This document shows positions 16,626-29,282 of a stretch of DNA of 55,617 bases, piece after piece. The stretch comes from an archaeon GW2011_AR20 (lineage in GTDB: Archaea > Nanobdellota > Nanobdellia > SCGC-AAA011-G17 > GW2011-AR20), in NCBI GenBank assembly GCA_000830315.1, contig CP010426.1, positions 506,743 to 562,359 on the forward strand, read 5' to 3'. The stretch's first letter is position 1. Every line of letters begins with the position of its first letter. The translations under genes were made by a program, and so were the position numbers. The notes below the pieces were generated by a model. It made no database searches and was not told where the DNA came from. It saw nothing but the letters and a program-made list of their open reading frames with translations.

Positions 16626-17552
16626 ATGAAAATTGTTATAGCTTTAGGGGGAAATGCAATCATCAAAAAAGGTGAAAAGCAGACTTATTCTAACTTAATT
16701 AATAACATTAAAAAAACCTGCAAACAAATTGTTCCTGTGTTGAAGAAAAATAAAGTTTTGATTACCCACGGCAACGGATCTGAAATCGGATATCTTGCAA
16801 TACAGAATGAAATTGCAAAACAAAAAGTTCCTGCAATGCCTCTAGATGTTTTAGGGGCAGAAAGCCAGGCGTTGATAGGATATATTTTTGAGGAGCAGCT
16901 AAGAAATTTTTTAAGGGAAAACAGAATAAACAAGCCGATTGTAAACATTATTACCCAGACTTTAGTTGATAAAGATGACAAGGCTTTTAGAGAACCAACA
17001 AAACCAATCGGCCCATTTTATAATAAACCTCAAGCACAAGAATTAAGAAAAAAAGGTTTTCATATTATTGAGGATGCTGGAAGGGGTTATAGAAGGGTTG
17101 TTCCTAGTCCATTGCCGTTAAAAATAATTGAGGAAACTGTGATAAAAGATTTAATCAAACATAATTTTATTGTTATAGCCGTAGGCGGAGGAGGAATTCC
17201 TGTCTATCTTAAGAATAATAAGCTATATGGAACAGAAGCTGTTATTGACAAGGATTTAGCTTCGCAGGTTTTGGCAAACGATATTGAAGCAGATTTATTA
17301 TTAATTTTAACTGGCGTTCCTTATGTTTATCTAAATTATCTAAAAAAGAATGAGAAGATAATTAAAAAAATGAATGTTAAGCAAGCGAAACAATATATAA
17401 AAGAAAATCAATTTGCAGAAGGAAGCATGAAACCAAAAATTCAGGCCGCAATTAATTTTTTACAGAGAGGAGGAAAAAAAGTCATCATAACTGATTCAAA
17501 CAATTTAATGAAAGCTTTAAATAATAAGGCGGGAACATTAATTGTTAAATAA
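16626..17552 (+). CDS. arcC: Carbamate kinase
   Basis: 308 residues. Amino-acid-kinase fold with VIALGGNAIIKKGEK at the N-terminus, THGNGSEIGYLAIQNE, the RRVVPSPLPLKIIEE segment, VIAVGGGGIPVY and AVIDKDLASQVLANDIEADLLLILTGVP. It transfers phosphate from carbamoyl phosphate to ADP, giving ATP, ammonia and CO2. Three bases separate it from the peptidase. Together with the carbamoyltransferase-like gene at 19384 it forms the last two steps of an arginine-deiminase-type pathway; no arginine deiminase is in the window. Confidence 0.93.
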   Translation: MKIVIALGGNAIIKKGEKQTYSNLINNIKKTCKQIVPVLKKNKVLITHGNGSEIGYLAIQNEIAKQKVPAMPLDVLGAESQALIGYIFEEQLRNFLRENRINKPIVNIITQTLVDKDDKAFREPTKPIGPFYNKPQAQELRKKGFHIIEDAGRGYRRVVPSPLPLKIIEETVIKDLIKHNFIVIAVGGGGIPVYLKNNKLYGTEAVIDKDLASQVLANDIEADLLLILTGVPYVYLNYLKKNEKIIKKMNVKQAKQYIKENQFAEGSMKPKIQAAINFLQRGGKKVIITDSNNLMKALNNKAGTLIVK

Positions 17553-17561
17553 AGAGGCAAT

Positions 17562-18872
17562 ATGAAAAAAAACGTGATAATAATCGGCGCGGCTGGTAGG
17601 GATTACCATAATTTTCTGACATATTTTAAAAATAATTCGGAATTTAATGTTGTAGCATTTACTCAGGCACAAATTCCAGGTATAGAAAAGAGAAATTTTC
17701 CTAAAGAATTAGCTGGAAGAAATTATAAGCATAACATTCCTTTTTATCCCGAGGAAAAACTTCCAGAATTAATAAAAAAATTCAATGTCGAATATGTCTT
17801 CTTATGCTACTCTGATTTATCTCATCAGGACGTTATGGATAAAGCCTCTATAGTTCTCGCAAATGGGGCTAATTTTGCATTGCTCGGAACAAATTCAACT
17901 TATTTAAAAAGCAAGAAACCTGTAATAAGCGTAACAGCAGTAAGGACAGGCTGTGGCAAGTCAAGGGTTAGCAAACGAATTGCTTTGCATTTAAAATCTA
18001 AAGGTCTTAATGTGGTCTCCTTGAGACATCCCATGCCTTATGGTTTATTAAATAAGCAAGAAGTTGAAAAATTTTACACAGAGCAGGATTTAGAAAAATA
18101 TAATGCTACAATTGAAGAAAGGGAGGAATACGAGCAGTACATTAAAAATCAGATTTCCATTTTTGCAGGCGTTGATTACAGAAAAATATTAAACGAGGCG
18201 GAAAGAGAAGCAGATGTTATTCTCTGGGATGGTGGGAATAATGATTTTTCATTCGTTAAACCAAACTTAAACATTGTCTTGGTTGATCCCAGAAGGGCAG
18301 GCAATGAATTAACTTATTATCCCGGGCAAGTTAATATGAGGATGGCTGACGTTATATTAATACATAAAATGTCTGGCACAACAGAAGAAAACTTGAAAAT
18401 CGTGCGCGAAAACATCAAAAAAGTAAATACAAAGGCAAAAATTATTGAGATTAATTCTGTAATAACAGTCGAAAATCCACAAGAGATAAAAAATAAAAGT
18501 GCATTGCTGATAGGAGATGGTCCAACGCTTACACATGGCGGAATGAAACACGGCGTTGCAGATTATATTGCAGAAAAATATAAATTAAATGTTGTTGATG
18601 CTGAAAAATATGCTGTCGGGAGCATAAAGCAAATTTATAAAAAATTTCCTCATCTGAAAAAGGTTCTTCCTGCAATGGGTTACAGTAAAAAACAAATTAA
18701 TGAGTTGCAAGAAACAATTAACAGGGCAAAATGTGATATTGTAATTGATGGAAGTCCTTCTGATCTGAAAAAATTTCTTAAAGTGAATAAAAAAATTTAC
18801 GCCTCCGATTATGATATATTAGATAAAGAGCTAAGGGAAGTTTATGGCTTCATTAATAAGATATTAAAATGA
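17562..18872 (+). CDS. COG2403-type P-loop protein (cyclic 2,3-diphosphoglycerate synthetase-like)
   Basis: 436 residues. N-terminal Rossmann-like NVIIIGAAGRDYHNF, then a second nucleotide-binding segment VISVTAVRTGCGKSRVSKRIALHL (P-loop with Gly-Cys-Gly-Lys-Ser, near residues 126-149), LWDGGNNDFSFVKPNLNIVLVDPRRAGNE and a C-terminal GDGPTLTHGGMKHGVADY. This matches the predicted-GTPase/cDPG-synthetase-like family that often accompanies carbamate kinase and carbamoyltransferase genes. Its real substrate is not established; context argues for a role in carbamoyl or nitrogen metabolism rather than thermoadaptation. It overlaps the next gene by 4 nt. Confidence 0.7.
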   Translation: MKKNVIIIGAAGRDYHNFLTYFKNNSEFNVVAFTQAQIPGIEKRNFPKELAGRNYKHNIPFYPEEKLPELIKKFNVEYVFLCYSDLSHQDVMDKASIVLANGANFALLGTNSTYLKSKKPVISVTAVRTGCGKSRVSKRIALHLKSKGLNVVSLRHPMPYGLLNKQEVEKFYTEQDLEKYNATIEEREEYEQYIKNQISIFAGVDYRKILNEAEREADVILWDGGNNDFSFVKPNLNIVLVDPRRAGNELTYYPGQVNMRMADVILIHKMSGTTEENLKIVRENIKKVNTKAKIIEINSVITVENPQEIKNKSALLIGDGPTLTHGGMKHGVADYIAEKYKLNVVDAEKYAVGSIKQIYKKFPHLKKVLPAMGYSKKQINELQETINRAKCDIVIDGSPSDLKKFLKVNKKIYASDYDILDKELREVYGFINKILK

Positions 18873-19387
18873 AAGTTATCCTAGATATGGCAATGAGTAT
18901 TAATGGGATTATTGCTAGGAAGAATTTTACCGAGGATTTTTTATCCGAAGGTAATTGGGAAGTTTTCTGCAAATTTGCTAATCAAGTAGGTTGTTTGATT
19001 TTTGGTAGAAAAACTTATGAAATGCTTACAAACCCTAAGGAATATGATATTCTTCCAATAAAAAATGTTTATAAAATTATAGTCTCAAAAAATAAAAGTT
19101 TAAGAAATAAAAATAAATTCTTCTTTGTAAGGTCTCCCAAAGAAGCTTTAAGAATGGCTAAAAAATTAGGCTTTAAGGAAGTTTTATTGGCCGGCGGAGG
19201 AAATATTAACTCTGAATTCATGAGACTTGGTTTAGTTGATGAGATCTTTTTAAACATAAATTCGGTTATCGTAAATAATGGAATAAGGGTTTTTGGAGAA
19301 TCAGATTTTGAACACAAACTTAAACTATTGGAAATCAAAAAATTAAAAGAGGATATATTAAGACTACATTATAAAGTATTAAAATGA
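18869..19387 (+). CDS. DHFR/RibD-C-like reductase
   Basis: 172 residues. MKVILDMAMSINGIIAR at the N-terminus, GCLIFGRKTYEML, EVLLAGGGNINSEFMRLGLVDEIFLNI (the NADPH-binding GGG motif), and the C-terminal beta strand LRLHYKVLK are shared by dihydrofolate reductase and the RibD reductase domain. It likely reduces a pterin or a riboflavin precursor with NADPH. Overlapping ATGA junctions on both sides show translational coupling with the carbamoyl genes, an unusual place for a DHFR-like enzyme, so a different substrate is possible. Confidence 0.7.
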   Translation: MKVILDMAMSINGIIARKNFTEDFLSEGNWEVFCKFANQVGCLIFGRKTYEMLTNPKEYDILPIKNVYKIIVSKNKSLRNKNKFFFVRSPKEALRMAKKLGFKEVLLAGGGNINSEFMRLGLVDEIFLNINSVIVNNGIRVFGESDFEHKLKLLEIKKLKEDILRLHYKVLK

Positions 19388-20277
19388 AAAATTTAATCTC
19401 TATAAATAATCTAAATAAAAAAGAAATTCTTGATTTAATTAACTTAGCTGTAAAAATCAAAAAACATTCTAAAAAATATAAAAATAAAGTTTTCGAAAAA
19501 GTATTGTTAACATTTTTTGAGCTTCCGTCATTAAGAACTGAATTATCTTTTGATACTGCTATGTTCCAGATGAATGGAGAAGTCATAGATTATCATTCTG
19601 AAAGTTCTCCCTGGGCACACGGAAAAGAAAGCATAGAAGATGTTGCTAAAGTGGTTTCAAGATATTGTGATCTGGTTATGATAAGAATGAAAGATCATAA
19701 TGAATTTGTTAAGTTTGCTAAAAATTCCAAAATTCCAGTTATAAATGGTTTAACATCTTACGAGCATCCCTGCCAGATTTTAAGCGATTTAATGACAATT
19801 TACGAAAAGAAGAAAAAGTTTAATTTAAAATTAGCTTATTTTGGAGATGCAAACAATAATGTCACCCATTCTCTGATTAATGCAGCCAATAAATTAGGCT
19901 TTGAAATGAGTATAGCTTGCCCAAACAAAAAGGATTATATGCCAAAAATCCAATTAAAAAAAGTAAAAATGTTTCATGATTTAGAAAAAGCAGTCAAAGA
20001 TGCAGACGTCGTTTATACCGACAGCTGGTTTTCTTACAGAATTCCAAAATCTCAATATAAAAAACGTGCTAAGATATTAAGAAAATTCCAGGTTAATAAG
20101 GATGTAATGAAATTGGCAAAGAAGAATGCCATATTTATGCATTGTCTTCCAGCATTAAGGGGATTTGAAGTTACTAAAGATGTTATAGATGGAAAACAGA
20201 GTATTGTATTTGATCAGGCTGAAAACAGACTTCATATGCAAAAGGCTATTATTTTAAAACTTCTAAATAAATCATAG
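19384..20277 (+). CDS. Ornithine-carbamoyltransferase-like protein with altered active-site motifs
   Basis: 297 residues, about the family length. Family blocks: HPCQ at 128-131 (carbamoyl-phosphate ligand), GDANNNVTHSL near 154-164, HCLP at 253-256, and the closing GFEVTKDVIDGKQSIVFDQAENRLHMQKAI. But the phosphate-binding STRTR motif is SLRTE at 49-53, and the ornithine loop, normally SMG, reads SYR at 217-219. It therefore may carbamoylate or de-carbamoylate something other than ornithine. As the last gene after carbamate kinase it likely supplies carbamoyl phosphate for ATP synthesis. Confidence 0.85.
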   Translation: MKNLISINNLNKKEILDLINLAVKIKKHSKKYKNKVFEKVLLTFFELPSLRTELSFDTAMFQMNGEVIDYHSESSPWAHGKESIEDVAKVVSRYCDLVMIRMKDHNEFVKFAKNSKIPVINGLTSYEHPCQILSDLMTIYEKKKKFNLKLAYFGDANNNVTHSLINAANKLGFEMSIACPNKKDYMPKIQLKKVKMFHDLEKAVKDADVVYTDSWFSYRIPKSQYKKRAKILRKFQVNKDVMKLAKKNAIFMHCLPALRGFEVTKDVIDGKQSIVFDQAENRLHMQKAIILKLLNKS

Positions 20278-20335: not shown

Positions 20336-20890
20336 ATGCAAAATAAAAATCTTGGAATTATATTAACTTTATTAAGCATAATAATCATAATTTTATTATT
20401 CTTCTTTAAAGCGCAGTTTCAGGATACTTTTGGGATACATTCTACAGAGGCATGCCCCCATGATCCATCAACAGGCGAATTATGCCCTTATGAAAAATTG
20501 GTTGATATTCTGCCTTATTTTTACAGCAGCATCACATTTCTGGTCATTATCGGATTAATTGGAATTTATTTATTGTTTTTTTTGGATAAAGAAAAAGAAG
20601 TTATCAAGGAATATCAAGAGAGAATAACTAAGAGATTGGAAGATGTAAAGAAGAAAGAATTGAAAGAAGATAAATTTAATTTTTTAATGGGCGCATTAAA
20701 TGAATATGAACAAAAAGTTATAAAAGCAGTAAGGGAGCAGGATGGAATTACCCAAGCTACGCTAAGAATAAGAACCGACTTAAGCAAGACAAAATTAAGC
20801 TTTATTTTAGCTGATTTAGAGAAGAAAGGATTAATTTCAAAGCAAATAAAGGGCAATACAAACCAGATTTTCTTAAAAAGGCAAATTTAA
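20336..20890 (+). CDS. Membrane-anchored winged-helix regulator
   Basis: 184 residues. Two membrane helices (residues 5-24 and about 63-83) bracket a short external loop with a Cys/His pair (TEACPHDPSTGELCPYEK). After a coiled linker, the C-terminal 75 residues form a winged helix: LNEYEQKVIKAVREQDGITQATLRIRTDLSKTKLSFILADLEKKGLISKQIKG. This layout (outside Cys loop, cytoplasmic DNA-binding domain) suggests a one-component sensor for extracytoplasmic metal or redox state. It stands directly upstream of the Cys-rich membrane gene set and may control it. Confidence 0.7.
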   Translation: MQNKNLGIILTLLSIIIIILLFFFKAQFQDTFGIHSTEACPHDPSTGELCPYEKLVDILPYFYSSITFLVIIGLIGIYLLFFLDKEKEVIKEYQERITKRLEDVKKKELKEDKFNFLMGALNEYEQKVIKAVREQDGITQATLRIRTDLSKTKLSFILADLEKKGLISKQIKGNTNQIFLKRQI

Positions 20891-21025: not shown

Positions 21026-21676
21026 ATGAAGAAAGAAAGTATTATAATATCTTTAATTATAGCAGCTGTTTTATTGACTGTTTTTAACCAATTTCAAATT
21101 CTAAAGGTAAATAGTTATTTGCAAAACAGCAACAGTTTTACTACAGGGCTGGCAACAGGCGTTAAAAGCGTCAATGCTTTAGATGTTGTTCCTAAAGGAA
21201 TTCCAGAGGTTTATGGCAAAGAGCTTGGAATTAATTATGATGAGATTAGTGTAAATAATCCGCAAAAGGCAGATTTGACAATCAGAAAATTAGCTTTGTT
21301 TGATAATAGCATAAACTTAGATGGCGATTTATTGGAAAGATACATTCAAATTACAAATTCAATAAGCTGCGAATATTGTTGCGGCGCAGAGGCAATAACA
21401 TTTTCTAACGGACAGGCAGCTTGTGGCTGTGCCCATTCATATGCAATGCGCGGATTAGCTAAATATCTATTGACAAAGCATCCTGAAATGACAAATGATG
21501 AAATTCTAAATGAACTTGGAAAATGGAAAACATTATTCTTTCCAGATTCAATAAATGCTAAAGCCCAGATCTTGAAAGAAAATAATATTGAATTAAGCTA
21601 TATTAACTTAGCTTCTAATAAATACAGGGGAATAGAACAAGGAAACGCGCAAGGAAGCATGGTTGGAGGTTGTTAA
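21026..21676 (+). CDS. Membrane-anchored Cys-rich protein with CEYCC / CGCAH motifs and MVGGC tail
   Basis: 216 residues. N-terminal signal anchor (residues 5-22), then an extracytoplasmic domain with two Cys clusters: C115-E-Y-C118-C119 and C133-G-C135-A-H137, followed by SYAMRGLAKYLLTKHPEMTNDEILNELGKWKTLFFP. The chain ends in MVGGC, exactly as the next protein does. The Cys/His clusters suggest metal or iron-sulfur binding. I recognise no named family. A strong SD AAGGAGG precedes the ATG. It is the first gene of a compact operon (21026-23588) beside copper and disulfide genes. Confidence 0.65.
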   Translation: MKKESIIISLIIAAVLLTVFNQFQILKVNSYLQNSNSFTTGLATGVKSVNALDVVPKGIPEVYGKELGINYDEISVNNPQKADLTIRKLALFDNSINLDGDLLERYIQITNSISCEYCCGAEAITFSNGQAACGCAHSYAMRGLAKYLLTKHPEMTNDEILNELGKWKTLFFPDSINAKAQILKENNIELSYINLASNKYRGIEQGNAQGSMVGGC

Positions 21677-21677
21677 A

Positions 21678-21917
21678 ATGGAAAAAAACACAATAATAGC
21701 TGTTGCTTTAGGCATCCTAGTTTTGATATCTATTGTGCAGGCTATTCAGATTGTCAGCTTAAAAAACCGAGTTGTAGACAGTATAATAGGAAGTGTTGTT
21801 GGCGATGAAGCTAGTGAAACATATGAAGCAATGATGGCTAGAATGCATCCAGATCAATATCAAGCTTCAAATTTAATAGCCAGCCAAAGCGGACCAACAA
21901 TGGTCGGTGGATGCTGA
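21678..21917 (+). CDS. Small membrane-anchored protein with MVGGC tail
   Basis: 79 residues from the ATG at 21678, just after the previous stop; its SD (GGAGGT) is formed by the last codons of the previous gene. One N-terminal helix (residues 6-25), a short helical stalk with AMMARMHPDQYQ, and the C-terminal MVGGC. Every synonymous codon in VGGC and the stop differ from those in the preceding gene, so the shared tail is not a recent copy. Unknown function; perhaps a partner or substrate of the preceding protein. Confidence 0.6.
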   Translation: MEKNTIIAVALGILVLISIVQAIQIVSLKNRVVDSIIGSVVGDEASETYEAMMARMHPDQYQASNLIASQSGPTMVGGC

Positions 21918-22414
21918 TGAAATTCAGGAAGTTATTGGCACTACTTCCTTCTTTATTTGTTTTAAGAGAAGTTAGTGCTCATTGTCCTTTATGTACCGGC
22001 GCTGTTGTAGCAGGAGCTGTTGGGGCAAAATATCTGGGGTTGGATGTAACAATATTGGGAATATTTGTCGGAGCATTTGCAATTTCATTGGGATTATGGA
22101 TTTCAAGGAAAATAAAAAATTATTTTAAATACCAAAACACATTGATTGTAACATCTTCATTTTTTTTAACTATAATTCCAAGCTTGGCATTTATTGATGA
22201 TATGACTTACATTTCTTTATTGAGCAAAACATTTTTTGTAAATAAATTACTAATTGGAAGCATAATTGGCGCATTAATTACACTTTTATCTTATAGATTA
22301 CATAATTATATTAAATTAAAGCATGGAAAAGTATTATTTCCATACCAAGGGGTTGTATTAACACTTTTACTTTTGATTTTATCGAGCATTCCTGTTTATT
22401 TTATATTTAAGTAA
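21917..22414 (+). CDS. Membrane protein with extracytoplasmic CPLC motif
   Basis: 165 residues from the ATG at 21917, which overlaps the previous stop (TGATG); an ATG at 21911 is less well placed. A cleavable-looking N-terminal segment is followed by AHC23PLC26TGAVVAGAVGAKYLGL, then about four more hydrophobic helices. The C-P-L-C pair just after the first helix resembles a thiol redox or metal site at the outer face of the membrane. The family is not recognised. Coupling to the MVGGC genes suggests one complex. Confidence 0.6.
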   Translation: MKFRKLLALLPSLFVLREVSAHCPLCTGAVVAGAVGAKYLGLDVTILGIFVGAFAISLGLWISRKIKNYFKYQNTLIVTSSFFLTIIPSLAFIDDMTYISLLSKTFFVNKLLIGSIIGALITLLSYRLHNYIKLKHGKVLFPYQGVVLTLLLLILSSIPVYFIFK

Positions 22415-22415
22415 A

Positions 22416-22889
22416 ATGGAAAAAGAAATTCAAAGTTGGATGGAGAAAGTTAAAGGAAAAGAATTTGATTTAAGCAAGCAAGAAGATCTTAGTATAGCAT
22501 TAATGAATTTAATTAGTTTGGAGGAGCATTTTTATTTTTCCAGCATGAAAACGGGAAACAAAGCTTATCTTGATATGCTTAATTCAGTGAGAACATTAAG
22601 AAAATCATTATTAAAAAAAATCGTGAAAAACCCTAAGGGAGAGGAATGGTGCATTAGCAAACATTTGCTTGCTTCTAGTATGCGCTTAATTGAAGTTGGA
22701 ACAAAAGAATTACAGGACAATGAAAAAGAAGCTGAAATGTATTTTAAATCAGCTTTTGAGCTTTATTCATTATTTTTTGCCATTAATTTAAACATCATTG
22801 AAGTTAAGGAAATTAAGGGAGAAAAATCATTATTTACAAGAAAAATTTCCGATATTGTAAAAAAAATTGTTGATTGCTGCAAGGAGTGA
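22416..22889 (+). CDS. Hypothetical helical protein of the Cys-rich operon
   Basis: 157 residues, no signal or membrane helix, predicted mostly helical (repeated amphipathic segments LSIALMNLISLEEHFYFSSMK, TGNKAYLDMLNSVRTLRKSLLKKI). One internal Cys (EEWCISKH) and a CC pair close to the C-terminus (VDCCKE). One base separates it from the previous gene. Likely a cytoplasmic partner of the membrane proteins around it; I do not recognise a family. Confidence 0.55.
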   Translation: MEKEIQSWMEKVKGKEFDLSKQEDLSIALMNLISLEEHFYFSSMKTGNKAYLDMLNSVRTLRKSLLKKIVKNPKGEEWCISKHLLASSMRLIEVGTKELQDNEKEAEMYFKSAFELYSLFFAINLNIIEVKEIKGEKSLFTRKISDIVKKIVDCCKE

Positions 22890-22891
22890 AA

Positions 22892-23371
22892 ATGGATTGC
22901 TGTCATACCAGTCATAAACATAGTAAACCGATAGAAAAAAAGGTTGATGTAAATAAAGATCATAAAAAAGAGAAATATCTTAATTATTTCAGTTCATTTT
23001 CTGGGTTTTCAGGAATATTTAGCTCTTATCAAGTTTGTCATTCAATTTGTTTAGGTGTGATTGCTTTGTTAAGCTTGATTGGAATCACATTAACAGGATT
23101 ACCATTTTTATTTTTGCAGAAATTAGCCTTGCCATTATGGACGATTGCATTAATCTTATTTGCTATAAGTATATTTATTTATATTAAGCATAAACATCAT
23201 AAAATAAAGAATTTATTAATATTCAATTCTGGTGCGATTATTGTAGGAATTCCGTTTGAAAATTTAGCTTTTTTAAGAAATTATTTCTTAGTTATCGGGT
23301 TTAGCATAATAATTTTTAGTTTATATTTAATAATCAAGAAAAGATTTGAGGTTAAATATGAAAAAATCTGA
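22892..23371 (+). CDS. Four-helix membrane protein with Cys/His-rich N-terminus
   Basis: 159 residues from the ATG at 22892 (SD AAGGAG upstream; an earlier in-frame start lies inside the previous gene). The N-terminus MDCCHTSHKHSK is a metal-ligand cluster on the cytoplasmic or outer face; four hydrophobic helices follow, the first holding YQVCHSICLG. The layout recalls small mercury/copper importers of the MerT/MerC kind, but the similarity is topological only. Metal transfer across the membrane is the best guess. Confidence 0.55.
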   Translation: MDCCHTSHKHSKPIEKKVDVNKDHKKEKYLNYFSSFSGFSGIFSSYQVCHSICLGVIALLSLIGITLTGLPFLFLQKLALPLWTIALILFAISIFIYIKHKHHKIKNLLIFNSGAIIVGIPFENLAFLRNYFLVIGFSIIIFSLYLIIKKRFEVKYEKI

Positions 23372-23588
23372 GAATCTCTTATTGTATGGATTATTATTTA
23401 TTGTAATTATAGCTTTAATATTTAGCATAAGTACATTTTTTAGCAAGGGTTATTCTCAACAAGATTATAACAAGTTTGTTTCAGCTGAAGGAGAAAACAA
23501 ATGTGAGACCCCACAAGGTTATACAAACGAAGAATGGAGAGAACACATGTCTCATCACCCGGATAGATATAAAGAATGCTTAACTTGA
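23358..23588 (+). CDS. Small membrane-anchored Cys/His protein
   Basis: 76 residues from the ATG at 23358, preceded by SD GAGGT; it overlaps the previous gene by 14 nt. One signal-anchor helix (8-27), then an outside domain with C49-ETPQGYTNEEWREHMSHHPDRYKE-C74 containing H63, H66 and H67. Two Cys and three His around a Trp make a likely metal site. It ends the plus-strand operon and overlaps the convergent gene by 9 nt. Confidence 0.6.
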   Translation: MKKSENLLLYGLLFIVIIALIFSISTFFSKGYSQQDYNKFVSAEGENKCETPQGYTNEEWREHMSHHPDRYKECLT

Positions 23589-24535: not shown

Positions 24536-24943
24536 TTAACTTACAACAATCTTTCCAAAACCCATTCCCATAGAACAAGAAAATGAAAATGTGCCTTTTT
24601 TATCTGGAACGAAACTTATTATATTATCTTTGGCTGTAACGAATTTTCTAACACCAAAGTCAGGGATAACAATGCTTTGTAAACAACCTCTGACTTTATT
24701 TGTATCTACCACAATTTTAGCAGGAACATTATATTTTAAATTGATTGTATTTGGATAATAATTATAATTTTTTACACTTAGATCAACTATTTGCTCTTCC
24801 CCGTTATTTTTAGCTCCAGCATCAACTTCCTTAACAATATTGTTTGTGATTTGTGAATTAGAAAAATAATTTCTTATTGCAACTAATAAAAATACACTAA
24901 TTAATATAATTCCAATGATTCCGAGTAATTTTCCTAATTGCAT
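24536..24943 (-). CDS. Membrane-anchored cupredoxin
   Basis: 135 residues from the ATG at 24943, one base after the stop of the upstream gene. One signal anchor (residues 5-23), then a cupredoxin-like beta sandwich: VDLSVKNYNYYPNTINLKYNVPAKIVVDTNKVRGC87LQSIVIPDFG and GTFSFSC123SMGMGFGKIVV. The usual His ligand positions are taken by Cys and the metal loop is C-S-M-G-M, so it probably binds Cu(I) through Cys/Met rather than as a blue copper protein. It is an export-side copper-binding partner of the Met-rich membrane protein encoded just upstream. Confidence 0.75.
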   Translation of the reverse strand: MQLGKLLGIIGIILISVFLLVAIRNYFSNSQITNNIVKEVDAGAKNNGEEQIVDLSVKNYNYYPNTINLKYNVPAKIVVDTNKVRGCLQSIVIPDFGVRKFVTAKDNIISFVPDKKGTFSFSCSMGMGFGKIVVS

Positions 24944-24944
24944 T

Positions 24945-25682
24945 TTAGCCAAATAAAAATGATCTTGGTCCAAAAACCATTAAAAATGTTAATCCTAAGG
25001 TAATTATAAAGTTTACTGTTATAAATGGCAGTAACTCAAATCCGTGATAATGAACATCTGGTTTTTTGCTGATCTCCTCTTGATATATCATAATAATTAA
25101 TCCAATAATCATCGCTAATACACTTATCATTAATATGGGGACAAAAACTGCCAGGTTATCATTTAATGTCATTACACTCGTCATAGCTCCCATTAATCCG
25201 CCCATTAAACCGGCCATCATTCCCTCCATTATTCCCATTATCCCGCAGCAATTTCCAGCATAGCTTCCAACAATTATTCCAACAATTATGCCGGCTAAGC
25301 TTCCAATAAACATCCCGTTTGTTGCCCCGACAATTAAACCGATGCTAAATCCGGAACTCATTCCAATTGTCATTCCAATCATCATTCCTGTTGTGCAGGA
25401 AAAAACATGCCTGTAAGCTTTAATATGCCATATGGCTATAGAATTAATTACTACAGCAATAACTAAGAATATTAAGTAATAGCCATATTTTGAAAAGAAA
25501 TCAGGAATATTTTTAAAAAAACCGAAATAAGCTATTGTTTCAATTAAAATCAGAAAAATTAAATTATAAAAAGCTGTTTTAATCATTGATTTTTCAACTT
25601 TAAAAATTAATTTACTAGAACTATGGTGTTTATGCTCTGGCTCGCAATTATCACATTCCGCTTCTTTATTTATTATGCTCAT
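24945..25682 (-). CDS. Gly/Met-rich polytopic membrane protein with N-terminal Cys/His cluster
   Basis: 245 residues. The N-terminus holds C10-D-N-C13-EPEHKHH, a heavy-metal ligand cluster. Two ordinary helices follow, then a long Gly/Met-zipper stretch: CTTGMMIGMTIGMSSG, then CCGIMGIMEGMMAGLMGGLMG, then two more helices. Repeated Met and Cys within glycine-rich helices suggest a copper(I) pore or copper-binding membrane core. It is encoded between the metal-sensing PadR regulator (17-nt overlap) and the cupredoxin, an operon that reads as sense, move and bind copper. No family name is recognised. Confidence 0.6.
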   Translation of the reverse strand: MSIINKEAECDNCEPEHKHHSSSKLIFKVEKSMIKTAFYNLIFLILIETIAYFGFFKNIPDFFSKYGYYLIFLVIAVVINSIAIWHIKAYRHVFSCTTGMMIGMTIGMSSGFSIGLIVGATNGMFIGSLAGIIVGIIVGSYAGNCCGIMGIMEGMMAGLMGGLMGAMTSVMTLNDNLAVFVPILMISVLAMIIGLIIMIYQEEISKKPDVHYHGFELLPFITVNFIITLGLTFLMVFGPRSFLFG

Positions 25683-26091
25683 GTTTTATTCCCTTTTTGT
25701 ATGAATCAGCACAATGACAGCAGCAAAATGCTAATTTTTTTCCATTTACTATTTCATTGTATTTATTATTGTAAACTTCGCAGCCACAATGTGTACATTT
25801 CGTAATCTTTCTTTTTAAGCTTTCTTGTATTATATCATTAAACTTTAATAAGGTATCATTTACAAATTTAGTTCCAGCTTCGGTCAAATTATATACCTTT
25901 TCACGTCCAAACTGCCTATAACTAACCAAATAATTCTCTTTAAGTTCTTTTAAAAACGGATAAATATGAGAAGCACTTATCTTTTTGTTTGTTTTTTCCT
26001 CAACCTCTTTCATTAATTCATAGCCGTTCTTTTCTTTGTTATTTAACGAGATTAAAGCATGCAATTTAACTAAACTATCTACCTTAACCAT
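25666..26091 (-). CDS. PadR-family regulator fused to a TRASH-like metal-sensing domain
   Basis: 141 residues. Residues 1-95 form a PadR winged helix (LHALISLNNKEKNGYELMKEVEEKTNKKISASHIYPFLKELKENYLVSYRQFGREKVYNLTEAG). The C-terminus holds C99-T-H-C102-G-C104 and C123-C-C-H-C127, spaced like a TRASH/YHS-type metal-binding domain, followed by HEHNK. In archaeal CopT/CopR regulators a TRASH domain senses copper, with a different DNA-binding domain; here the fusion partner is PadR. It probably represses itself and the divergent copper-efflux operon, releasing DNA when Cu(I) binds. Confidence 0.8.
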   Translation of the reverse strand: MVKVDSLVKLHALISLNNKEKNGYELMKEVEEKTNKKISASHIYPFLKELKENYLVSYRQFGREKVYNLTEAGTKFVNDTLLKFNDIIQESLKRKITKCTHCGCEVYNNKYNEIVNGKKLAFCCCHCADSYKKGIKHEHNK

Positions 26092-26878: not shown

Positions 26879-27040
26879 ATGGTTTTCGGTTTATTTAGCA
26901 AGCAAGTAGATCCTATATGCGGAATGAAGGTAAGCAAAGATTCCCAGCATAAGAGTGAATATAACGGCAAAACATATTATTTTTGTGCATTGAACTGCAA
27001 ACAGACATTTGATAAAAATCCAGAAAAATATGCAAAATAA
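26879..27040 (+). CDS. YHS-domain heavy-metal binding protein
   Basis: 53 residues. It reads MVFGLFSKQVDPICGMKVSK, then SEYNGKTYYFCALNC, then FDKNPEKY: the YHS core with D-P-I-C-G-M and F-C-x-x-x-C ligands. YHS modules deliver or sense copper and other soft metals and are often fused to the N-terminus of CopA; here it is a free protein overlapping the start of copA by 11 nt, so it is likely a metallochaperone for that pump. SD GGAGG lies at 26866-26870. Confidence 0.88.
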   Translation: MVFGLFSKQVDPICGMKVSKDSQHKSEYNGKTYYFCALNCKQTFDKNPEKYAK

Positions 27041-29282
27041 GCTAGAATTAAACGTAAGAGGAATGCATTGTGCTAGCTGTGTACTTAAGGTAGAGAAGGC
27101 TATAAAAAAAGTTTCAAATGTTAAAGAAGCAAATGTTAACCTTGCTACAGAGAGGGCAACTGTTAATTATGAAGGAGATTTAGATCTGAATCAAGTTAAG
27201 AAAGAAGTTCAGAAAACAGGTTATGATATTGAATTGCCAGAAAAACATGAAATGCAGGGAATGCACGGCATGGAAGGGCATGATCATGCAGCAATGCTAA
27301 AAGAAAAAGAAATTAAAGATTTAAAAAACAAGTTTATTTTAGGAGCAATATTATCTGTTTTAATCTTACTTGGGACATATCAAGAATTTTTATCTTTCCT
27401 AAGTTTTATTCCCCGCAATTCAATGTTTATCATTTTGTTATTATTAACTATTCCTGTGCAATATTATGTCGGACTGATGTTTCATAAAAGGGCTTGGCAG
27501 GGATTTAAACATTTTAATTTTGATATGGACTCATTAGTTTCAATAGGGACAAATGCTGCCTTTATTTATAGCTTATTTGTAATATTATTTCCAAATTTCT
27601 TTACAGGGACCAGTTTAGAAGCAGAAGTTTATTTTGATACAGCTGCAATAATAATCACATTAATTGTCTTAGGGAGATATTTGGAAGCAAAAGCTAAATC
27701 AAGGACATCACTGGCAATTAAAAAATTAATTGGATTGCAGGCCAAGACAGCAACTGTAATGAGAAATAACAAGGAAATTAAAATTCCAATAGAAGAGGTT
27801 AAAATAAATGATATTTTATTAATAAAACCCGGGGAGAAAATTCCTACAGACGGCACAGTTCTTTTTGGTTATTCTTCTGTAGATGAAAGCATGATTACAG
27901 GAGAAAGCATTCCAGTTGAGAAAAATATTAAAGATATTGTAATTGGCGGAACAATAAATAAAAATGGCGTATTAAAAATAAAAGCTACCAAAATTGGCAA
28001 GGATACAATGCTTTCACAGATTATAAAACTGGTCGAAGAAGCACAGGGAAGCAAAGCACCAATCCAAAGGCTGGCTGATAAAATTGCAAGTGTTTTTGTC
28101 CCGGTTGTTGTTTCAATTTCGATATTAACATTTTTAACCTGGTATTTTATAGGACCTCAGCCTGCTTTTAATTTCGCTTTACTTAATTTTATTGGAGTTT
28201 TAATTATAGCATGCCCATGTGCAATGGGATTAGCAACACCGACTGCAATAATGGTTGGAACAGGCAAGGGAGCAGAATCAGGAATTTTAATTAAAGATGC
28301 CGGCGCGTTAGAAATGGCCCATAAGGTTAATATAATACTATTTGATAAAACCGGGACATTAACTAAAGGTAAACCAGAAGTTACAAATGTTTTAGCATTA
28401 AATAATTCTAAAGAAAAGGAGGTTTTACTTTACTCAAGTATAGCAGAGAAGAATTCAGAACATCCATTAGCAGAGTCTATAATTAATTATGCTAAAAAAA
28501 TAAAATTAAAAATTCCAAGCCCAAGTAAATTTGAAAATGTTCCAGGACATGGTATTAAAGCTTATTTAAGAGGAAAAACAATTTTGAATGGCAATAGAAG
28601 GTTAATGAAAATAAATAAAATTAATATTAATCAATATGAGGAGTTACTAAATAAATTTGAAGATGAAGGTAAAACAGCCATGCTTGTTGCCGTAAACAAG
28701 AAGATAATTGGAATAATAGCTGTAGCAGATACATTAAAAGAAAATTCTAAAGAGGCTATTGCGGAAATAAAGAAATTGGGCAAGGAGATTTATATGATTA
28801 CTGGGGATAATGAAAGAACTGGAAAAGCAATTGCCGAACAACTTGATATAGATAATGTTTTAGCAAATGTCTTGCCTGATGAAAAAGCAGCTAAAGTTAA
28901 GGAATTGCAAGGTAAAGGTAAAATTGTCGCTTTTGTTGGTGATGGAATAAATGACGCACCTGCTTTAGCACAGGCAGATCTTGGAATTGCAATAGGAAGT
29001 GGAACAGATGTTGCTTTAGAAACAGGAAGCATCGTTTTGGTTAAAAGTGATTTAAGAGATGTTGTCAAGGCAATGAGATTAAGCAAGTTTACTTTAAAGA
29101 AAATAAAACAAAATTTATTCTGGGCATTTGTTTATAATATTTTAGGAATCCCAATTGCTGCAGGCGTTTTATACCCTTCATTTGGATTTTTGCTTAACCC
29201 AATTATAGCGGCAGGAGCAATGGCCTTCAGCTCAGTTTCAGTTGTAAGCAATTCTTTATTAATGAGAAGATATAAACTATGA
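27030..29282 (+). CDS. copA: Copper-exporting P1B-type ATPase
   Basis: 750 residues from the ATG at 27030; an earlier TTG lies deeper in the YHS gene. An N-terminal metal domain with GMHC14ASC17, a His/Met linker (HEMQGMHGMEGHDHAAM), TGES near 290, the intramembrane CPC at about 395-397, the phosphorylation motif DKTGT near 439, SEHPLAESI, and GDGINDAPAL. The last helices carry NPIIAAGAMAFSSVSVVSNSL, the Met-Ser-Ser pattern of Cu(I) pumps. It pumps Cu(I) out using ATP and is the effector of the operon controlled by the divergent PadR-TRASH protein. Confidence 0.95.
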   Translation: MQNKLELNVRGMHCASCVLKVEKAIKKVSNVKEANVNLATERATVNYEGDLDLNQVKKEVQKTGYDIELPEKHEMQGMHGMEGHDHAAMLKEKEIKDLKNKFILGAILSVLILLGTYQEFLSFLSFIPRNSMFIILLLLTIPVQYYVGLMFHKRAWQGFKHFNFDMDSLVSIGTNAAFIYSLFVILFPNFFTGTSLEAEVYFDTAAIIITLIVLGRYLEAKAKSRTSLAIKKLIGLQAKTATVMRNNKEIKIPIEEVKINDILLIKPGEKIPTDGTVLFGYSSVDESMITGESIPVEKNIKDIVIGGTINKNGVLKIKATKIGKDTMLSQIIKLVEEAQGSKAPIQRLADKIASVFVPVVVSISILTFLTWYFIGPQPAFNFALLNFIGVLIIACPCAMGLATPTAIMVGTGKGAESGILIKDAGALEMAHKVNIILFDKTGTLTKGKPEVTNVLALNNSKEKEVLLYSSIAEKNSEHPLAESIINYAKKIKLKIPSPSKFENVPGHGIKAYLRGKTILNGNRRLMKINKININQYEELLNKFEDEGKTAMLVAVNKKIIGIIAVADTLKENSKEAIAEIKKLGKEIYMITGDNERTGKAIAEQLDIDNVLANVLPDEKAAKVKELQGKGKIVAFVGDGINDAPALAQADLGIAIGSGTDVALETGSIVLVKSDLRDVVKAMRLSKFTLKKIKQNLFWAFVYNILGIPIAAGVLYPSFGFLLNPIIAAGAMAFSSVSVVSNSLLMRRYKL

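Follow-up and report, generated by a model that had tools for sequence, protein, structure and literature searches.

The closest known architecture to the proteins described here, though unrelated to them in sequence, is that of PacL (DUF1490), partners of P1B-ATPases in mycobacteria that consist of a single helix, a disordered linker and a short C-terminal metal-binding motif (PMC9374683). PacL proteins are often encoded beside a metal ATPase, and several paralogues share membrane clusters; their tail is of the DLHDHDH type, cytoplasmic and zinc-binding, and they are found only in Actinobacteria (PMC9374683).

In the window analysed here (the whole stretch of 55,617 nucleotides from the archaeon GW2011_AR20), two adjacent genes, designated A and B, encode members of a conserved DPANN set of single-helix membrane proteins, which have in common the helix, its juxtamembrane motif and the pentapeptide MVGGC at the C-terminus. 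The features of the locus are:

20336–20890, plus strand: upstream neighbour, two-helix membrane protein with winged-helix domain (DUF7343, HTH_24); in 12 of 22 loci
21026–21676, plus strand: protein A, 216 aa; membrane helix (residues 2–34), Cys/His domain (residues 115–173), linker, MVGGC tail
21659–21673, plus strand: MVGGC tail codons of A, read directly
21678–21917, plus strand: protein B, 79 aa; membrane helix, Met/His motif YEAMMARMHPDQ, linker, MVGGC tail
21900–21914, plus strand: MVGGC tail codons of B, read directly
21917–22414, plus strand: protein C, signal-peptide-like start, HCPLCT, then helices; in 11 of 22 loci
22416–22889, plus strand: protein D, conserved neighbour of 157 aa ending in DCCKE; in 9 of 22 loci
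22892–23371, plus strand: protein E, membrane protein with His/Cys-rich N-terminus (MDCCHTSHKHS) and QVCHSICLG; in 9 of 22 loci
23358–23588, plus strand: small membrane protein ending in EHMSHHPDRYKECLT, with a Met/His motif like MMARMHPDQY of B; relatives in 11 of 22 loci
24536–24973, minus strand: cupredoxin-domain protein (PF13473, E 1e-11)
25666–26091, minus strand: PadR-type regulator (PF03551) with Cys-rich C-terminus (CTHCGCEV...FCCCHC)
26879–27040, plus strand: YHS-domain metal protein (PF04945)
27009–29282, plus strand: heavy-metal P-type ATPase with HMA domain (PF00122, PF00403)

Two neighbouring membrane proteins and their gene context

By direct reading, the terminus of A (21659–21676) is ATG GTT GGA GGT TGT TAA and that of B (21900–21917) is ATG GTC GGT GGA TGC TGA. 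Tails, protein lengths and the synonymous differences in the Val, Gly, Gly, Cys and stop codons are thus as described in the initial annotation, which had also argued against a recent duplication; the codon differences and the phylum-wide spread of the tail bear this out. In a pattern search of the 829-kb genome, VGGC followed by a stop occurred at two sites only, the ends of A and B. The match is far beyond chance, which is excluded because homologues of both proteins carry the tail. The further claim that the two proteins are otherwise unrelated does not wholly hold, since the N-terminus of each is a membrane helix that bears a juxtamembrane motif of the type 'NQFQI..L' / 'QAxQI..LK', seen in 41% of tailed A and 75% of tailed B proteins, but in only 1% of 744 other membrane frames. 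Judged from the sequences, A is best seen as this common frame plus an extra Cys-rich domain.

The alignment of A homologues yields the invariant core CEYCCGAE...ACGC.HS..MRG...WK..(F/Y)FP (CEYCCGAE...ACGCAHS..MRG...WKTLFFP in the A protein of the window), with CxxCC and CxC groups and a Cys/His cluster of C115, C118, C119, C133, C135 and H137. The AF2 model of A has a mean pLDDT of 87.8. Searches of Pfam, NCBIfam, PDB sequences and PDB folds gave no match for A, and its fold had no meaningful match among viral structures; neither A nor B has a significant Pfam match. As far as sequence comparison goes, the Cys/His domain is unnamed in the databases searched. B occurs in three forms, one with a YE.MMARMHPDQ motif, one with a WT..E.MNYE(M/H)HG..PAR motif and a minimal one; the smallest B proteins comprise only the membrane helix, a linker of 23–50 residues and the tail. 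In Diapherotrites, the WT..E.MNYE(M/H)HG..PAR motif is found inside A instead of B.

In all 11 aligned homologues of protein C, the signal-like start ends in alanine and is followed by an invariant HCPLC. Because AHCPLC is invariant at this place, the first residue of mature C may be His, a feature of some copper proteins; cleavage has not been shown. C matched no Pfam family and no PDB fold, and no family was found for D in Pfam or NCBIfam. The small membrane protein at 23358–23588 has a Cys three residues from its end and is, by sequence, a possible further member of B's kind. DUF5676 is also encoded near A and B in the window. On the minus strand, 24945–25682 encodes a membrane protein that has a His/Cys N-terminus and helices rich in Met and Gly (GNCCGIMGIMEGMMAGLMGGLMGAM); it is conserved in two Micrarchaeota loci (L048, L049). 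Just upstream of the locus (16626–20277) lie an amino-acid kinase-like gene (16626) and a carbamoyltransferase-like gene (19384), both named by eye and possibly part of arginine catabolism.

Among 22 loci, 16 have at least one gene for a Cu-type ATPase, cupredoxin, YHS, DUF411 or PadR/TRASH-like protein (P-type ATPase 9, DUF411 9, YHS 7, PadR/TRASH-like regulator 6, cupredoxin 5). Redox genes are frequent in the same set too, with thioredoxin-like (6), DsbD/CcdA (6) and rhodanese (9) types.

Distribution and concerted change of the tail

The tail is selected at the protein level, is confined to the A locus and varies jointly across the proteins that one locus encodes. In many DPANN archaea, two or three adjacent membrane-anchored proteins carry it. 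To avoid counting tails by searching for tails, the profile of the A core was built without the tail. It retrieved 122 distinct A genes from DPANN archaea (Nanoarchaeota/Woesearchaeota, Micrarchaeota, Diapherotrites and Aenigmatarchaeota), 107 of which terminate in MVGGC or something very near it (98 MVGGC, 6 QVGGC, 2 QIGGC and one QQGGC plus one Gly), so that homologues of A do not end in unrelated residues. In 13 of the 15 A genes without a tail, the next gene encodes a small membrane protein with one (MVGGC, QVGSC or MVGSC), and A itself can therefore lack it: almost all complete loci have a tail, and one is needed on some protein of the locus, though not on A. The other two are weak second A-like genes (L172, 2913–3462; L176, 2414–3023) with the ends AGSCSA and AGSCNV, which are intermediate between MVGGC tails and bacterial SCG tails.

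Relatives of A are present in 42 of 103 genomes of the source's order and in 103 of 371 sampled genomes of its phylum; in the phyla of the Micrarchaeota, Diapherotrites and Aenigmatarchaeota records, the numbers are 9 of 146, 19 of 87 and 28 of 145. When 84,980 species genomes were scanned, 21 contigs came up, of which 19 bear the label of a DPANN group and two merely that of an 'archaeon'; A was not found in the plasmids searched. One genome carries a second system (L036, 30–2687), where a four-helix protein fused to a tailless A domain precedes a B with a tail and a triple thioredoxin-like protein. Fusions of this kind are also found in L082 and L190. A B-like frame in L179 (2415–2700; MVGGCQRDGRRT) is the only case with residues after MVGGC, maybe owing to a sequencing error or an overlap. 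In L031 (2166–2357), a 63-aa lipoprotein-like product beside A and B ends in NGGGC and contains GGGGCG; it is perhaps a lipid-anchored counterpart of B.

The initial annotation had inferred selection on the protein and had noted that a Shine-Dalgarno sequence for the next gene would account for the Gly codons but not for Met, Val and Cys. Both points are supported by 167 tails from 78 loci, in which the peptide stays constant while all four Val codons (62/47/39/19), all four codons of each Gly, both Cys codons and all three stops are used. The next start codon lies at most 15 nt after the tail in 134 of the 167, and GGAGG is commoner when it is close (77/134 versus 13/33 tails). Were the tail found only where the next ribosome-binding site overlaps it, its selection as a peptide would be in doubt; however, the other 33 keep the same peptide, 77 of the 167 have no GGAGG, and GGCGGC, GGTGGT and other Gly codon pairs are found with any stop and in several phyla. 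Shine-Dalgarno use biases the choice of Gly codons and does not explain the peptide. A tail produced by chance, recent duplication or Shine-Dalgarno overlap can thus be regarded as refuted, duplication by the differing codons and the wide spread, overlap by codon usage and next-start distance.

Further proteins ending in VGGC were to be sought near A genes, according to the initial annotation, and this is where most of them are: the 103 genomes of the order contain 108 V-G-G-C-stop matches with a true stop, of which 90 lie no more than 3 kb from an A gene. Among the 42 genomes with A, 37 have clustered tails, as against 0 of the 61 without (p 6e-23). In the sole A genome of this order without a nearby tail, A is located at a contig end, and ten further DPANN genomes follow the same pattern of confinement. 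A sorting signal was among the functions originally listed; one that acts genome-wide is unlikely, given that hardly any tails are found away from A, and was rejected as the main reading; a metal ligand or a partner site is left from that list, but neither is proven.

The last five residues are equal in 93 of 95 loci where A and a neighbour both have recognised tails, and in about eight lineages both tails have changed together: to QVGGC in six loci (among them L149, L166 and L182), to QIGGC in two (L184, L185) and to QQGGC in one (L187). Each replacement of Met by Gln takes two base changes. The seven QVGGC tails found first were in three loci where every tail has Gln, an all-or-none pattern met in 0 of 200,000 shuffles (which ignore relatedness), and near relatives in two genera keep Met on both proteins (G018 versus G021–G023; G033 versus G032). 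The one clear discord pairs MVGGC with MQGGC (L180). A large share of tails read LPx[MQ]VGGC, and in 68 of the 70 loci with several tails the LPx residues are alike on all of them. Since one tail nearly always changes when the other does, the tail is a genuinely functional element, and the simplest reading of these sequences would be one common partner for the tails of each locus. The concerted Met-to-Gln switches are a natural experiment that ties the tails to one partner.

Possible roles of the tail cysteine

Profile comparison connected A with proteins of the CC.N...DCNHG type (E 1e-5, probability 81%), whose motif differs from the CxxCC...CxCxH spacing of the A core. They include DPANN rhodanese fusions and single-domain proteins as well as Tat-type proteins of Burkholderia and Paraburkholderia plasmids. 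All seven aligned relatives have one Cys close to the end of the chain, within low-complexity sequence (GACGV, GSCGA, ASCGM), and the Burkholderia protein ends in ...ASASCG. Because the relatives carry RR-type export signals, one of them matching a Tat-signal model, the domain was placed outside the cell. The Burkholderia relative adjoins genes for a heavy-metal ATPase, DUF411, TlpA, DsbD and CcdA; an isoprenylcysteine carboxylmethyltransferase-family gene (L083, 634–1293) lies in the same copper island. The invariant C-terminal Cys and the copper/redox neighbours together suggest that the tail Cys may be an old partner of the Cys/His core, acting in cis in these relatives and also in trans in MVGGC loci. 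The support for a link between A and the bacterial domain is moderate.

The Cys of MVGGC is probably a metal- or electron-handling residue in a copper-handling gene island. In the reading we prefer, to which we assign a probability of roughly 0.45, A and B would lie adjacent in one membrane hetero-oligomer with their tails outside the cell. Flexible linkers would let the tail Cys reach the cluster of C115, C118, C119, C133, C135 and H137, where, with Met or Gln as a possible weak second ligand, it would complete or load a soft-metal site, most likely for Cu(I). B proteins would then be membrane-tethered metal carriers or ligand donors acting in trans on A. The function is untested, and metal binding has not been measured for any member. 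The distribution fits this proposal (107/122 A proteins tailed, 13/15 untailed ones preceding a tailed B; clustered tails in 37/42 versus 0/61 genomes), and so do the concerted change in 93/95 loci, the helix motif common to A and B, the reduction of the smallest B to helix, linker and tail, the C-terminal Cys and export signals of the probable relatives, the copper-type genes in 16/22 loci and the metal-gene surroundings of the Burkholderia relative. On the other hand, Met is replaced by Gln in several lineages and Gln is a poor Cu(I) ligand, so that Met may only fit a pocket; in some blue-copper proteins, Gln substitutes for Met as the axial ligand. Val and both Gly residues are conserved as strongly as Cys, although a plain ligand would not require this. 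Copper genes lie near many loci but not all, the charge around the helix supports an outside tail only weakly, and the connection to the bacterial domain is, as stated, no more than moderate.

The main alternative, which we consider unlikely, though it cannot be dismissed, is that the tail Cys, by analogy with mobile cysteine arms at other C-termini, is a swinging thiol through which A exchanges disulfide, electrons or sulfur with partners in the membrane. Triple thioredoxin-like, DsbD/CcdA-like, TlpA- and rhodanese-type proteins among the neighbours would agree with this analogy, as would the CxxCC and CxC groups of A and a minimal B that is merely a tethered Cys. However, no redox family occurs in all loci (each in 6–9 of 22), the most frequent immediate context is copper-type, and the invariant Met/Gln and Val would have no explanation; redox helpers are moreover expected as well wherever Cu(I)-thiol sites have to be kept in the reduced state. 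It is doubtful that the tail is instead a tag on which a dedicated enzyme modifies or attaches the terminal Cys by lipidation, thioester formation or covalent coupling. If tails followed the specificity of such an enzyme, one would expect what is seen, namely variable linkers before an invariant end strictly at the stop codon, the frequent LPx and a concerted change on all substrates. Yet the substrates are few and local, confined to one locus rather than scattered, which makes modification less likely; the proteins are already membrane-anchored, the motif has no NCBIfam match and, unlike sortase/archaeosortase signals, no helix and basic run after it, and no modifying-enzyme family is common to all 22 loci. 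The least probable of these alternatives makes the tail a docking element that holds A and B together, with Cys forming a structural inter-subunit disulfide. Concerted change, the shared helix motif and the dispensability of the tail on A when B has one are compatible with it, but the homologous domain keeps a tail-like Cys in proteins without B, which indicates a role in the domain itself.

The boldest reading would be a new type of DPANN membrane machine in which several different single-helix proteins each present the same pentapeptide to one Cys/His domain and the tails co-evolve; a shared metal or redox centre would be built in trans from interchangeable protein tails. We offer this tentatively, as a possibility rather than a conclusion. 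In any case, the tail is a sharply defined, testable sequence element in archaea with mostly unnamed proteins. Should the metal reading be true, it would reveal the way in which cells whose genomes are very small deal with copper or other soft metals outside the membrane, and would put a name to a Cys/His domain family, probably also present in bacterial copper islands.

Comparison with known systems

The motif and the families of A, B, C and D are absent from the family libraries and the literature searched; a literature search for MVGGC or VGGC gave nothing relevant, and searches on DUF411 and PCYCGC gave little. The PCYCGC family (PF13798), with a true member in a related locus (L046), is a small extracytoplasmic Cys-rich domain of unknown function comparable to that of A, but its proteins lack an MVGGC tail. 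Membership of A in this family was rejected, as there was no PF13798 match above the cut-off. Sorting signals such as LPXTG, PGF-CTERM and CaaX/Rab -GGC are likewise short and conserved at the C-terminus behind a variable linker, whereas MVGGC is directly followed by the stop, without a helix or basic run, its substrates belong to one operon and their N-terminus is already anchored. Dispersed substrates, as expected for archaeosortases and sortases, are not seen (90 of the 108 matches within 3 kb of A, and only two in the source genome). The unnamed CCxN...CNHG proteins, probable distant relatives of the A domain, resemble the A loci in their metal/redox neighbours; their ends are not MVGGC but lie 1–20 residues after the Cys, and no B partners were seen.

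PacL proteins have neither a Cys tail nor an A-type domain, no sequence relation to A or B was seen, and A and B gave no Pfam match to DUF1490 (PF07371). The likeness, for which there are no metal-binding data, lies in the architecture, B being a single helix with a linker and a C-terminal motif, and in the ATPase that is encoded nearby in 9 of 22 loci.
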